Source: Microcoleaceae cyanobacterium MO_207.B10
GTDB taxonomy: Bacteria; Cyanobacteriota; Cyanobacteriia; Cyanobacteriales; Microcoleaceae
Direction: 5' to 3'
DNA: 32,624 bases
Assembly (NCBI GenBank): GCA_030064835.1
Contig: JASJEE010000015.1
Span: 1-32,624, forward strand
In this document: positions 21,991 to 29,433 of the stretch, piece by piece
Position numbering within the stretch: position 1 is the first letter of the stretch
How the letters are laid out: every line of letters begins with the position of its first letter
Translations under genes and position numbers: made by a program
Notes under the pieces: model-generated
The model's database searches: none
Seen by the model: only the letters and a program-made list of their open reading frames with translations
Told to the model about the DNA's origin: nothing

Positions 21991-22302
21991 TTAAACTTGA
22001 TTTGAACCTATTTCTAGAAGTTTTTCCAATCTTGCCGTTGACCAGTATTCTGTAGGGTAGGCGATCGCAAAAATAGACGAAAGCCTAACCAACCATGTCA
22101 CCTGTTTAAAAGAATCATCTTCATCATCATATTCATCAGGTGGGACTAATACCATAATTTCGACAAAATCTTTTGTTAAAGTAATGGGGAGGCCATAATA
22201 ACTTTCCTCAGCTTCGATGCGGACTTTATTACCATTTTCTAATGCTTCTTTCAACCTTTGATAGAGAAGATTAGACTTTTTTAACTTTTCCTTTTTGGCC
22301 AC
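21991..22302 (-). CDS. Conserved small cyanobacterial protein, 103 aa
   Basis: I do not recognise a named family. The start is GTG (GTG GCC AAA AAG) with GGGAGAA about 7 bases upstream. The N-terminus is lysine-rich (MAKKEKLKKSN). Then come NGNKVRIEAEESYYGLPITL and VEIMVLVPPDEYDDEDDS, which look like a small beta-barrel or Sm/OB-like fold with an acidic loop, and then VTWLVRLSSIFAIAYPTEYW. A KxRIE..YYGxPxxL core of this kind hints at a nucleic-acid or regulatory role, but this is speculation. It is cytoplasmic and monocistronic, on the same strand as the Ro gene but 570 bases downstream of it. Confidence 0.7.
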   Translation of the reverse strand: MAKKEKLKKSNLLYQRLKEALENGNKVRIEAEESYYGLPITLTKDFVEIMVLVPPDEYDDEDDSFKQVTWLVRLSSIFAIAYPTEYWSTARLEKLLEIGSNQV

Positions 22303-22875: not shown

Positions 22876-24405
<1,530 letters not shown>

Positions 24406-24426
24406 TTAATATTTATGATTAAATAT

Positions 24427-24493
24427 ACCGCGCAAGTTAAGAGAGTTTTGCTACTGAGAAGCTGTATGTAATCTCTCTAGTTTGGGGCGCGAC
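24427..24493 (-). ncRNA. U0: minimal Y-RNA-like hairpin in the Ro leader
   Basis: The RNA reads CGCGCCCCAAACUAGAGAG... ...CUCUCUUAACUUGCGCG. The outer stem CGCGC/GCGCG (24487-24491 with 24429-24433) and inner stem AGAGAG/CUCUCU enclose the conserved internal loop (5' CCCAAAC, 3' UUAACUU). The apex is short: AUUACAUAC, a relic of the acceptor strand seen in the other units, and a GCU..AGC hairpin. It has no D, anticodon or T arm. It sits 100 bases upstream of the Ro start codon, after the L7/L12-like gene, so it would lie in the mRNA leader of Ro. It could be a deletion product of a full unit, or a binding site through which Ro controls its own mRNA. Confidence 0.65.
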
Positions 24494-24512
24494 GACAACT
24501 GCTAAATAAAAG

Positions 24513-24572: not shown

Positions 24573-24765
24573 TTTATCCCTTGTTATTTAGACATAATAT
24601 TATTGTTTAAGGATAATTAAAAGCTTTAAATGAAATTCTAAAAGGGTTTTAAATCTGGTTTTACCCAATTTTTTCGAGCTTCCCAAGACATCAAGTTTTC
24701 TCTACTATAATATTCAAAAGGTAAAGCTGAATTTTCGTAAAGGTTGACTAAATTATTAGATACAC

Positions 24766-24884
24766 AATAGGGATTCTAAATGATTTGTAAAAAAACTGTA
24801 GGGGTTGGCTTTCCAAATCCCTCCTTTGGGTTTGGAGACCAAACCCCTACGATAAAATATTACAACCTAATTTACGGCTGCTAT
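24766..24884. repeat. Palindromic element of the GTAGGGGTTTGG family, copy 3
   Basis: It begins AATAGGGATTCTAAATGATTT and contains CTGTAGGGGTTGGCTTTCC and GAGACCAAACCCCTACG. It ends ACAACCTAATTTACGGCTGC, 5 bases from the stop codon of the L7/L12-like gene. It probably inserted at the 3' end of that gene and may now serve as its transcript end. Confidence 0.7.
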
Positions 24885-24888
24885 CAAA

Positions 24889-25278
24889 TTATTTCAAAGA
24901 AACTGTTGCTCCTAATTCTTCTAATTTTTGCTTCATCTGTTCAGCGTCTTGAATATTGACATTAGATTTAATAACTTGGGGTAAGTTATCAATAACTTTT
25001 TTAGTTTCCTGTAAACTTCCAAAGAGACTTAAACTGCGTATCTCCTTAATAAAAGATATTTTTTTGTTAGCTGGAAATTCCTCTAATACAATATCAAAAA
25101 TAGTTTTTGCTTCAGGAGGATCTATCTTATTCTTATCGACAATAGGAATAGGGTTTACTACAGTAATTTTATCGGCACTTACTTGAAAACAATCTTCTAT
25201 TTGTTTCACCAATTCTGTAGCTTCTAACATTGTTATTGATTTTAGTCTTTCCAATATTTCATCAGTTTTTATAGACAT
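24889..25278 (-). CDS. Divergent paralogue of ribosomal protein L7/L12 (bL12-like)
   Basis: At 129 aa it has the full bL12 layout. The N-terminal dimerisation helices (TDEILERLKSITMLEATELVKQIE, first 30 residues) are followed by a hinge (about 35-57, lacking the usual Ala/Gly-rich composition) and the C-terminal domain (58-129, FDIVLEEFPANKKISFIKEIRSL ... DAEQMKQKLEELGATVSLK). The translation-factor contact residues of E. coli L12 (Lys65, Ile69, Lys70, Arg73) have equivalents at Lys73, Ile77, Lys78 and Arg81. The near-invariant GLGLKEAK turn is changed to LFGSLQETK. It is not in an rplJ-rplL operon but between RNA units U1 and U0, upstream of Ro on the same strand, with GGAGAAAG before its ATG. 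It probably interacts with ribosome-associated GTPases or the stalk. Its role is unknown. Confidence 0.85.
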   Translation of the reverse strand: MSIKTDEILERLKSITMLEATELVKQIEDCFQVSADKITVVNPIPIVDKNKIDPPEAKTIFDIVLEEFPANKKISFIKEIRSLSLFGSLQETKKVIDNLPQVIKSNVNIQDAEQMKQKLEELGATVSLK

Positions 25279-25343
25279 GATGCTTTCTCCATATAATAAA
25301 AATTTTATATACTTTAAATTTATCTACAAATTACTTAAAATAA

Positions 25344-25488
<145 letters not shown>

Positions 25489-25631
25489 ATATTTTGATTT
25501 TTTATTGAATCTTTTTAGAGTGGATAGGTATTGTGATTGATACTAATATAAAATCTTATGATTTTGCCTGCCCTAAATATTTTGTAATCATCTGTAAATC
25601 TGTTTAATACCTTTTGCTTTGGTTTAAAATC

Positions 25632-25750
25632 ATCTCGCGCAAGTCAAGAAAGCTATTTGTATACAGACAGGAACAATACCCGTTTTTTCTTGATTATCAG
25701 TCAAGTGCCGTTTGGCTAGTATGTAAGCTTTCCCAGTTAGGGCGCGAGAT
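25632..25750 (-). ncRNA. U2: Y-RNA-like stem carrying a shrunken tRNA mimic (GAU loop)
   Basis: The outer stem is 9 bp (AUCUCGCGC/GCGCGAGAU), with internal loop CCUAAC / UUGACUU and inner stem GAAAGCU/AGCUUUC. The apical domain has a reduced D arm (GCC-AAAC-GGC). Its anticodon arm CUUGA-CUGAUAA-UCAAG (25705-25689) has the same stem as U1 but anticodon GAU (Ile) in place of CAU. The T-like arm is ACGGG-UAUUGUU-CCUGU, whose loop has lost the UUCRA consensus. The long variable arm of U1 is missing. The Y-like stem is intact while the tRNA part is eroding. Confidence 0.75.
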
Positions 25751-25877
25751 AAAAGTTCAATTTTTAGCAATTTATTTAATTATATAAACTGACATTTTTT
25801 GATGTCAAAAATTACTCTAATCATTGTTAAATATGTTTGAAAATATGTGTCTTACTTGGCTTTATTGTAGTAGTTAA

Positions 25878-25991
25878 AATCATTTCGCGCAAGTCAAAAA
25901 CCTGTATACGCAGGATACCTGCATTAGCTCTCGCTAACTTGCGTGGCAGTCAAATATATCTAAGATTTAATTGTTAGGGCGCGAAATGATT
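25878..25991 (-). ncRNA. U3: Y-RNA-like stem with a partly lost tRNA mimic (GCC loop)
   Basis: The outer stem is a perfect 13 bp (25979-25991 with 25878-25890). The internal loop is CCUAAC / UUUGACUU. The inner stem has changed to AAAUCU/AGGUUU, so pairing is kept while the sequence differs. The apex lacks a D arm. It keeps an anticodon-like arm UUUGA-CUGCCAC-GCAAG (25954-25938; anticodon GCC, Gly, with one A-G mismatch at the loop edge). A variable-arm hairpin UUAGC-GAGA-GCUAA capped by a GNRA tetraloop (25937-25924) and a T-like hairpin GCAGG-UAU-CCUGC with a 3-nt loop follow. Confidence 0.7.
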
Positions 25992-26099: not shown

Positions 26100-26127
26100 A
26101 TATATTTTTTGAAATTAGGAATTAAAA

Positions 26128-26256
<129 letters not shown>

Positions 26257-26344
26257 AATTTTCTCTGCTTTATTTAATCTATTTAACTTGTTCCAACTTT
26301 AGTATTAAAATTAGAAATGACATATTAAGAGATAGGAATTAAAA

Positions 26345-26473
26345 TCACTCCGCGCAAGTTAAGAAAGCTGTTGTTTCATACGCAGGAATTGAACCTGCTA
26401 CGACTTGCGTGGAAGGCAAATGCTCTACCAAATGAGCTAGTATGTAAGCTTTCATTGTTAGGGCGCGGAGTGA
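26345..26473 (-). ncRNA. U5: as U4 but with a Gly-like anticodon arm (UCC loop)
   Basis: This unit is 129 nt and nearly identical to U4 in outer stem, internal loop, inner stem, acceptor-like stem, D arm and T arm. The outer stem (CACUCCGCGC/GCGCGGAGUG) shows compensatory change. The anticodon arm is a different sequence altogether: UUUGC-CUUCCAC-GCAAG (26420-26404), with anticodon UCC at 26413-26411 and a five-pair stem. Flanks of U4 and U5 are also related (GAUAGGAAUUAAAAUCAC on the plus strand), so the two arose by tandem duplication of about 217 bp, followed by replacement of only the anticodon arm. Confidence 0.88.
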
Positions 26474-26552
26474 AATTTTCTATGGTTTATTTAATCTATT
26501 AAAGCTGGTTAAACTTGAATATTAAAAGTAGAAAAGCATCTTAAGAGATAGG

Positions 26553-26730
26553 ATTTTACTAAGTTGAAAAAATAATGAATACAATACAGCCGTTCTTATC
26601 AGTTTTTAATCTGACAGTGAACCCACTAATCTTTATCTTCAGAAAGACTTAGAAAGTTTCACAATTAGTCGGTTGCCCGAATATCGCTATCTTAGAATGT
26701 ATGTATACTTTATCCGTTAGGGTGTTAAAT
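26553..26730 (-). ncRNA. U6: long degenerate unit related to U8
   Basis: The 5' part reads ACACCCUAACGGAUAAAGUA followed by UACAUACAUU, which follows U8 (CACCCUAACUGGUAAAGCGU, ACAUACAUU) rather than U1-U7. The 3' part ends UCAACUUAG, a decayed form of the UURACUUGCGC strand. The outer stem is poor. The middle holds a GNRA hairpin UCGG-GCAA-CCGA, an ACUAAU...AUUAGU pairing, GUGGGUUCACUG (T-arm-like GGGUUC) and a UCAG...CUGA hairpin. No anticodon arm can be read with confidence. A plus-strand frame of 36 codons across it (NLYLQKDLESFTISRLPEYR) looks slightly protein-like, so an inserted gene fragment is possible. It is probably a decaying copy. Confidence 0.45.
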
Positions 26731-26801
26731 CATTTCAGTTATCAGTTACCAATAAAAGTTTGATTTTTGATTTTTTTATTCTTATTATAATAGTTTAAAA
26801 A

Positions 26802-26930
26802 TCACTTCTTACAAGTTAAAAAAGCTGTTGATTCATCCGCAGGAATCGAACCTGCTACACTTTGTTCTTGAGACAAATGCTCTACCAAATGAGCTAGTAT
26901 GTAAGCTTTTTTTGTTAGGGCACGAAGTGA
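26802..26930 (-). ncRNA. U7: as U4/U5 but with a CAA anticodon arm
   Basis: It is again 129 nt. The D arm is identical to U4/U5, the T arm is GCAGG-UUCGAUU-CCUGC, the acceptor-like stem CAUAC/GGAUG and the inner stem AAAAGCU/AGCUUUU. The anticodon arm UUUGU-CUCAAGA-ACAAA (26877-26861) has five pairs and anticodon CAA (26870-26868), which would read Leu UUG, although real tRNA-Leu is class II. The outer stem UCACUUC/GAAGUGA is intact, but the GCGC part has changed to GUGC/GUAA with two weak pairs. It is the third member of the same scaffold with a third anticodon arm. Confidence 0.85.
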
Positions 26931-26948
26931 ATTTTAACCACTATTATT

Positions 26949-27108
26949 ATGTTCCGCACAAGTCAATAAAGGGCTGAATACTGATGCTCTATCCGTTGAG
27001 CTACACCCCCACAAAATATTAAAGAGGGGATGGTAGGACTTGAACCTACAACCTTCGGTTTAGCAAACCAAAATGTATGTACGCTTTACCAGTTAGGGTG
27101 CGGAACAT
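26949..27108 (-). ncRNA. U8: Y-RNA-like stem carrying a circularly permuted tRNA (GCU loop)
   Basis: The outer stem AUGUUCCGCAC/GUGCGGAACAU is a perfect 11 bp. The internal loop is CCUAAC / UUGACUU, and the inner stem UAAAG/CUUUA. Inside, the tRNA parts occur in permuted order. First comes the anticodon arm UUGGU-UUGCUAA-ACCGA (27071-27055; anticodon GCU), then AGGUU, the T arm GUAGG-UUCAAGU-CCUAC (27049-27033) and acceptor 3' strand CAUCCCC (27032-27026). A 15-nt AU-rich linker follows (27025-27011), then acceptor 5' strand GGGGGUG (27010-27004), UA, and D arm GCUC-AACGGAUA-GAGC (27001-26986). GGGGGUG and CAUCCCC form a perfect 7-bp acceptor stem. The D/T/acceptor parts look like a tRNA-Arg body, and the anticodon arm like tRNA-Ser(GCU). 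Confidence 0.85.
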
Positions 27109-27140
27109 TGAATATATTTTCCTTAAAACTCAGGTTTTAT

Positions 27141-28131
<991 letters not shown>

Positions 28132-29277
28132 ATGCTAAAAAAACTTTATGTCAACAACTTTAAATGTCTGGTTAACTTTGAAATTAAATTCTCAAATATA
28201 AATTTACTACTAGGAGCAAATGGTTCTGGAAAAACAACAGTTTTTGAAGTTTTGCATAAACTCCAAAAATTTATATTAGGAGAATTTGAAACTACTGGAA
28301 AATATTATCAAGTCTCAGAAATTTTTCATCAGCAAGATTTAACCAAATGGCAAAATTCATCTGTTCAGAAATTTGAATTAGAAATTGCTGGAAACGGAGG
28401 CACATATTTATATGTTCTGGAAATAGAATATCAAGATAATTCCATTCCCAGAATGCTTTCTGAAAATTTGACCTTTGATAAAAAACTTCTATTTGAGTTT
28501 AATATCCAGCAGACTTTACGAGAAATTCCTTTTGCAACACTATTTAATGATTACTCTAGCACCAAAGGATCTATGCTTGGATATTTTGATTTTTCGCGCT
28601 CAGGAGTAGGTTTTGTTCCTGAAAAACCAGACCAACAAAAACTTACTTTCTTTAAAAAGTTAATTGCCAATTTTTTTATTGTTCAAATAAATCCTTTTGC
28701 TATGACTACAGAAAGTCGTCAAGAGGAAAAACATCCTAATAGAAATATGTCAAACTATGCTGCTTGGTATAGTCATCTATCTCAAGAATTTTTGAATCAA
28801 ATATTTGAGCTTACACTAGAATTACAAAAAATAATCAAAGGTTTTAATTCTTTCCAAAATCAGAAATATGGAGAAGCTAGAATTCTTTCGGCAATTTTCA
28901 ATCTTCCCACTAAAACATCCTACAAACTTAACGAATTATCAGAAGGTCAAAAAACATTAATTGCTCTATATACTTTGATATTTTGCACTCCAGAAACTGA
29001 TTGTATTTTATGTATTGATGAACCAGAAAATTTTCTAGCTTTACCAGAAGTACAACCTTGGCTAATGAAACTTTTTGACTATTGTCAGTCGAATCAAAAA
29101 CAAGCATTATTAATTTCTCATCACCCATCTTTAATTAACTATTTAGCTAGTAATTCAGGTTATTGGTTTGAAAGACAAGAAAATCAACCTGTGCGGGTAC
29201 AGAAAATTGTTGAAGAAGATGAAGATGGTTTATCAATTGCCAAATTAATAGAACTTAGATGGATTTATGATGATTGA
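28132..29277 (+). CDS. SMC/ABC-like AAA_21 family ATPase
   Basis: The 381-aa protein has Walker A GANGSGKT (residues 28-35) right after MLKKLYVNNFKCLVNFEIKF. The ABC-type signature LSEGQ lies at 269-273, Walker B with catalytic Glu in CILCIDEPE (291-299), and the H-loop ISHH at 328-331. The insert between Walker A and signature is about 230 residues with no long coiled coil. This is the RecF/OLD-like ATPase type often paired in cyanobacteria with a small TOPRIM-like protein, as it is here. Such pairs occur in anti-phage modules (OLD, PARIS, Gabija-like), but the exact system is not identifiable. It is cytoplasmic. The ATG start gives the standard N-terminus. Confidence 0.87.
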   Translation: MLKKLYVNNFKCLVNFEIKFSNINLLLGANGSGKTTVFEVLHKLQKFILGEFETTGKYYQVSEIFHQQDLTKWQNSSVQKFELEIAGNGGTYLYVLEIEYQDNSIPRMLSENLTFDKKLLFEFNIQQTLREIPFATLFNDYSSTKGSMLGYFDFSRSGVGFVPEKPDQQKLTFFKKLIANFFIVQINPFAMTTESRQEEKHPNRNMSNYAAWYSHLSQEFLNQIFELTLELQKIIKGFNSFQNQKYGEARILSAIFNLPTKTSYKLNELSEGQKTLIALYTLIFCTPETDCILCIDEPENFLALPEVQPWLMKLFDYCQSNQKQALLISHHPSLINYLASNSGYWFERQENQPVRVQKIVEEDEDGLSIAKLIELRWIYDD

Positions 29278-29335
29278 ATAAAAATTATGGTTGTTTTGGA
29301 GTGTTTAAATAAACCGGGTTTGTTGGAGGGAAATG

Positions 29336-29363
29336 GTAGGGACGTTGCATGCAACGTCCGTAC
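29336..29363. repeat. Short palindrome GTAGGGACGTTG / CAACGTCCGTAC
   Basis: The arms meet at a central GCATGC, with one mismatch. It is the third GACGTT-type copy in the window and lies between the ATPase gene and its partner. Confidence 0.85.
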
Positions 29364-29433
29364 AAGGGAATTTCATACAAACTCGGTTTCTATCTTTTGA
29401 TTTGATATTACTTCTAAATTAATATTGCTAAAA

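Follow-up and report, generated by a model that had tools for sequence, protein, structure and literature searches.

A conserved bL12 paralogue upstream of a Ro60-like gene in cyanobacteria: a candidate ribosomal stalk variant behind a putative TrcR-type operator

Why would a gene for ribosomal protein bL12 (L7/L12) lie among tRNA-like RNA units, upstream of a Ro-like gene? The question is raised by a locus in 32,624 nucleotides from a Microcoleaceae cyanobacterium, the whole of which is called here the window (genomes, contigs and loci are designated by our G, C and L numbers). A first-pass annotation had described a full-length bL12-like gene between RNA units U1 and U0. The open reading frame was confirmed, upstream of the Ro-like one and on the same strand, and is named bL12p hereafter. 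The features of the locus, in the direction of transcription, are the following.

27798-27827, minus strand: putative TrcR-type promoter/operator, TGTAGTAT overlapping the -10 box of TTGACA-N18-TAGTAT (sequence match).
27141-27341, minus strand: P66, 66 aa, first gene of the locus, with a conserved C-terminus and a beta-grasp-like model.
26947-27110, minus strand: RNA unit U8, with a conserved outer stem and a divergent tRNA-like part (46 bits).
26800-26932, minus strand: U7, tRNA-Leu(CAA)-like (143 bits).
26548-26735, minus strand: U6, probably degenerate, limits approximate (5' motif at 26724, 3' arm placed by eye).
26343-26475, minus strand: U5, tRNA-Gly(TCC)-like within a two-step outer stem (154 bits).
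26126-26258, minus strand: U4, tRNA-Asn(ATT)-like (154 bits).
25878-25991, minus strand: U3, with a reduced tRNA-like part (58 bits).
25628-25754, minus strand: U2, truncated tRNA-like (130 bits).
25342-25490, minus strand: U1, tRNA-Met(CAT)-like with a long variable arm (133 bits).
24889-25278, minus strand: bL12p, full-length bL12 (L7/L12) paralogue, 129 aa (Pfam and TIGR matches, Ro-linked clade).
24650-24850, minus strand: remnant of DUF141, a 141-aa gene (50% identity, to residues 64-141 only).
24424-24498, minus strand: U0, a short unit that lacks the tRNA-like part and directly precedes Ro (recognised by the conserved 5' and 3' motifs).
22876-24327, minus strand: Ro60-like protein, helical repeat ring plus vWA domain with DKSGSM, probable start at 24327 (AlphaFold model, structure match).
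21991-22302, minus strand: P103, a small protein also found downstream of Ro in relatives.

The window copy matches both bL12 domains above the curated cut-offs (PF00542, 71.6 bits; PF16320, 31.2 bits) and scores 98.6 bits against the equivalog model TIGR00855 (cut-off 84.4). Its predicted layout combines a dimerisation and putative uL10-binding N-terminal domain (NTD) with a factor-binding C-terminal domain (CTD), joined by a hinge that is not Ala-based. The factor-contact residues K73, I77, K78 and R81, reported earlier as kept, are all in place; they align with what we take to be K65, I69, K70 and R73 of E. coli, whose sequence serves as a numbering ruler only. In this numbering, K65, I66, K70, R73 and K84 are kept in 32 to 33 of the 34 Ro-linked copies aligned, position 69 is mostly L or I, and many NTD positions are conserved. 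The first-pass annotation also noted that the Ala-rich hinge and the GLGLKEAK motif were missing; this is true of the window copy, but most other Ro-linked copies keep GLGLKEAK or a near form of it. Among the copies compared, the motif is lost as a whole only in the window's own lineage, and its loss from the window copy may weaken factor binding.

The window gene is not the only rplL of its genome. A separate canonical copy, for which a search had been suggested, is found at G000:C395:2331-2729, behind uL11, uL1 and uL10 in the rplK-A-J-L order. A bL12 tree, likewise suggested with TROVE-linked branches in mind, placed the Ro-linked copies in one clade by maximum likelihood, with a support of 97/99 on all columns, 100/96 after removal of the hinge columns and 100/99 with an outgroup, the clade then being nested inside the cyanobacterial canonical rplL; these trees rest on only about 130 columns, many of their inner branches are weak, and the most diverged row (L165) was excluded from the hinge-free and outgroup ones. 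In the rooted tree the outgroup does not fall on a single side, because row L281, counted as outgroup, belongs to the same class. A hinge artefact is ruled out, since the support persists without those columns. Judging from these trees, bL12p goes back to one old duplication within cyanobacteria. It resembles canonical cyanobacterial bL12 in both Pfam domains, in its TIGR00855 score above cut-off and in the conserved NTD and factor-binding residues, and differs from it by its separate clade, by a charged or Pro-rich hinge (Ala/Met-rich in the canonical protein), by its place outside the rplK-A-J-L cluster and the rplJ-rplL pair, behind a TrcR-type promoter, and, in the window, by the absence of GLGLKEAK.

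The neighbouring gene had been labelled Ro/TROVE. Pfam TROVE (PF05731) gave no match in its 483-residue product up to an E value of 10, and a TROVE family search of the window's genome found none, so the family label did not hold; the Ro60 part of it did. An AlphaFold model of the protein (pLDDT 84) matches Ro60 structures (9nfa, E 5e-12, TM 0.68; 2nvo, E 1.3e-11) and D. radiodurans Rsr, at about 15% identity, which points to a divergent Ro60-fold protein. A classical Rsr locus is ruled out by the absence of Pfam TROVE, the similarity being one of fold only.

The RNA units share a fold in which a two-step outer stem closes a tRNA-like part. A covariance model trained on 20 units retrieved 428 matches in 76 loci. 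In 150 of these, 583 two-sided changes were counted against 148 in shuffles, and 97.7% of the paired cells were formed, both in an alignment that was itself fitted to the model. The covariation of helices 1-2 and of the tRNA-like arms was reached by 0 of the 500 shuffles and was far lower in slid controls. By this comparative evidence the units are real structured RNAs; U0 on its own folds no better than shuffles (z -1.4). The array does not consist of true tRNA genes, as each of the four tRNAs called in the window is the tRNA-like part of a longer structured unit. Linkage with the Ro-like gene suggests that the units are putative Ro ligands. The known bacterial Ro60 systems pair Rsr with a Y RNA (YrlA), as in D. 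radiodurans Rsr or Salmonella rsr-yrlBA-rtcBA (PMC7790460). Both have a Ro60 fold with vWA and an RNA whose tRNA-like part is closed by a longer outer stem; the present loci differ in the 15% identity and the missing Pfam TROVE, in their many RNA units per locus, in that no rtcB was seen next to the Ro-like gene, and in the bL12 or EF-Ts paralogues alongside.

Recurrence of bL12-like genes beside this Ro gene, which the first-pass annotation had named as a point to check, was found in many genomes; together with the single clade, it rules out a chance neighbourhood. Within the order, eight family-level groups have Ro-linked bL12 genes, with constant slot and orientation, and Nostoc and Anabaena loci have bL12p in that same slot. 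Seven other genomes of the window's family carry it upstream of Ro, and an eighth (G040) holds only a 16-residue remnant. The general order is [GNAT]-P66-RNA units-P239-bL12p-DUF141-Ro, every accessory gene being optional; DUF141 follows bL12p in most relatives. Ro was present in 84 of the 243 genomes of an order-wide sample; the strongest non-canonical bL12 matches adjoined it in 16 genomes, and local search added three further diverged Ro-linked copies, a count that is unbiased, whereas counts over all loci examined are biased because later loci were partly picked for having bL12p. A genome search also showed, near the Ro gene of G005 (L073, 7895-8098, minus strand), a CTD-only L12-like stretch with 39% identity and an internal stop.

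The genes that accompany bL12p and Ro are often related to translation. Eight loci, all with bL12p, encode an EF-Ts paralogue distinct from the other tsf of each genome (e.g., L171 5918-6541, L172 4405-5013 and L182 7270-7932; it lies downstream of Ro in L174-L177). The Ro loci of G037 and G012, which lack bL12p, have an additional EF-Tu gene, with about 80% identity to the other copy of the genome. Long tRNA arrays adjoin the loci of G037 and G085; in L076 (9283-15595, plus an extra EF-Tu gene) and L173 (3867-6704) the array, some 30 tRNA genes long, immediately precedes the locus on the same strand; no array of true tRNA genes was found on the window contig. Next to the window locus, at 28132-30006 on the plus strand, an AAA-ATPase and a 193-aa protein are hit by PADLOC models of HEC-01 and of AriA type and form a possible defence pair.

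Santamaria-Gomez 2021 (NAR) reportedly described the Anabaena trn operon as a silent long tRNA array. Its TrcR site consists of TGTAGTAT over the -10 box (PMC10272220). TrcR of Anabaena represses this operon as well as rtcB, rsgA and rimK, and the repression is lifted by chloramphenicol, spectinomycin and streptomycin (PMC10272220). The promoter of the window locus carries a putative operator of this type by sequence: the strict pattern at 27798-27827 on the minus strand is the sole match in the window's genome (6.2 Mb). Of the 68 loci, which are not all independent, 48 carry the TGTAGTAT 8-mer in the 520 nt that precede P66, against 0.018 expected per locus, and 40 have a TTGACA at 17-18 nt. 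The likeness to the trn/TrcR regulon (PMC10272220) lies in TGTAGTAT overlapping the -10 box and in the long tRNA arrays directly adjoining some Ro loci; the difference is that here bL12p, tRNA-like RNAs and Ro share one locus, and no bL12, EF-Ts or Ro gene is named among the strongly TrcR-repressed genes listed in that article. A second promoter candidate, a 12/12 sigma-70 type match at 25808-25779 on the minus strand, lies just upstream of U2 and overlaps a small inverted repeat. It could allow TrcR-independent transcription of U2, U1, bL12p and Ro.

The reading we favour, with moderate confidence, is that bL12p is a variant stalk protein that can be derepressed, as part of a translational-stress kit. 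Taking together its homology, single origin, conserved residues, gene order and operator sequence, we infer the following course of events. Impaired translation would lead to loss of the repressor, and the locus would be switched on. Dimers of bL12p would then mount on uL10, replacing canonical bL12 or beside it, where the changed hinge may alter the recruitment of EF-Tu and EF-G. Spare tRNAs and EF-Ts would sustain elongation, and the Ro RNP would in parallel deal with damaged or misfolded RNA. Ro and bL12p would cooperate, if at all, as co-regulated partners of one response, for which contact is not needed. The pattern suggests a reserve ribosome part for emergencies.

The first-pass annotation had instead seen in bL12p an adaptor joining a Ro/tRNA-like RNP to the stalk or the translation GTPases, with Ro inspecting stalled or damaged tRNA-ribosome complexes. 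The strict order P239-bL12p-DUF141-Ro on one strand in many genomes would agree with this, as would the tRNA-like RNAs, the kept factor-binding residues and the EF-Ts paralogues in common loci. However, no intact Ro gene accompanies bL12p in three genomes (L170, L171 and L172), where bL12p has a stress-type promoter of its own 109-312 nt upstream (TTGACA-N17-TAGTAT, the -10 box overlapped by TGTAGTAT), and most genomes with Ro lack bL12p, which the Ro system therefore does not require. In L182, bL12p stands in a P66-headed locus without Ro, the same genome having Ro elsewhere. Moreover, nothing in bL12p stands out as a Ro-specific region, the hinge alone being strongly different. Given that three genomes keep bL12p under a TrcR-type promoter of its own, and that related loci share EF-Ts or EF-Tu paralogues, a Ro-bL12 complex is probably not what links the two genes, and a shared translational-stress regulon accounts for the association at least as well. 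We consider the adaptor unlikely and favour the stalk variant over it, since these genes have translation under stress in common and bL12p occurs without Ro.

A conflict scenario, in which tRNA mimics, bL12p and the EF-Ts/EF-Tu paralogues are decoys or resistant spares against phages or toxins (anticodon nucleases, EF-Tu- or stalk-targeting toxins), would fit the many different anticodon arms of the tRNA-like units, accessory genes that differ from genome to genome and the AAA-ATPase pair resembling defence models beside the window locus. Mycobacterial tRNA arrays, for their part, have been termed a putative antidefence system (PMC12803027). Against it, Ro, P66 and P239 gave no PADLOC match, the operator indicates translational stress in general, and the factor-binding residues are kept rather than randomised; the conflict scenario seems improbable to us.

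For the window's lineage, a further reading is that the bL12 paralogue was useful once and, with selection relaxed, is now carried along while it decays. Pairwise dN/dS of bL12p runs from 0.09 to 0.14 in Nostoc and from 0.17 to 0.31 in other families, and is highest in the window's lineage (0.38-0.53), ratios that indicate purifying selection in most lineages and its relaxation in this one. Three copies in close relatives are decayed (an in-frame TAA in G057, a split gene in G039 and the remnant in G040), and together with the dN/dS values they mark bL12p as dispensable in this lineage; the long branch to the window's clade and the DUF141 already reduced to a remnant agree with decay. Yet the window's open reading frame is intact and of full length, its dN/dS remains below 1, and G056, which has two tandem, diverged bL12 paralogues (L035, 8811-9194 and 9363-9749), keeps its second copy. 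That it is a mere passenger is, on balance, quite unlikely, but the gene may be in the course of being lost from this lineage.

P66 ends in RPEA(V/I)YG in cyanobacteria and in RPEAVFG in a planctomycete; counterparts lie at L091 7661-7858 and L099 8704-8928. With its model, Foldseek found nothing below E 0.2, and VIA-align aligned it to chains of ubiquitin, MoaD-like and PB1 type with a Z of about 5, which its notes describe as common; P66 is on this basis a possible ubiquitin-like modifier. Downstream of Ro, 15 loci encode a protein of 282-351 aa together with a ThiF/E1-like enzyme (L091 12773-14477; L099 13295-15403), and the planctomycete locus adds a Prok-JAB protein and an AAA ATPase. A wider reading takes the whole locus as a single inducible reserve for translation and its quality control, made up of bL12p, variant EF-Ts/EF-Tu, spare tRNAs, the Ro60 RNP and its tRNA mimics, and P66, which with E1-like enzymes (and JAB-like ones in the planctomycete) would tag parts of ribosomes that have failed. 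Such a system would roughly correspond, in bacteria, to ribosome-associated quality control; this is a long shot.

The open-licence literature searched treats tRNA arrays, the TrcR regulon and Ro/Y RNA separately, and in it we found neither a bL12-Ro link nor a locus of this kind with a bL12 paralogue described. In the vWA-MoxR conflict systems of Bacteroidetes, an L12-like domain is inserted in a vWA protein (PMC7159879); they share with the present loci the association of an L12-type domain with a vWA protein, whereas bL12p is a stand-alone, full-length paralogue. A TROVE gene of Chlorogloeopsis is induced by erythromycin (PMC6424891); since this gene could be a classical Rsr, it is not counted as evidence here.

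The NCBI model TIGR00855 would label bL12p genes as plain L7/L12. A divergent Ro60/tRNA-like RNA system tied to translational stress is a possible clue to the purpose of bacterial Ro RNPs, and a second conserved bL12 clade with a stress-type promoter would make the exchange of the bacterial stalk under stress directly testable.
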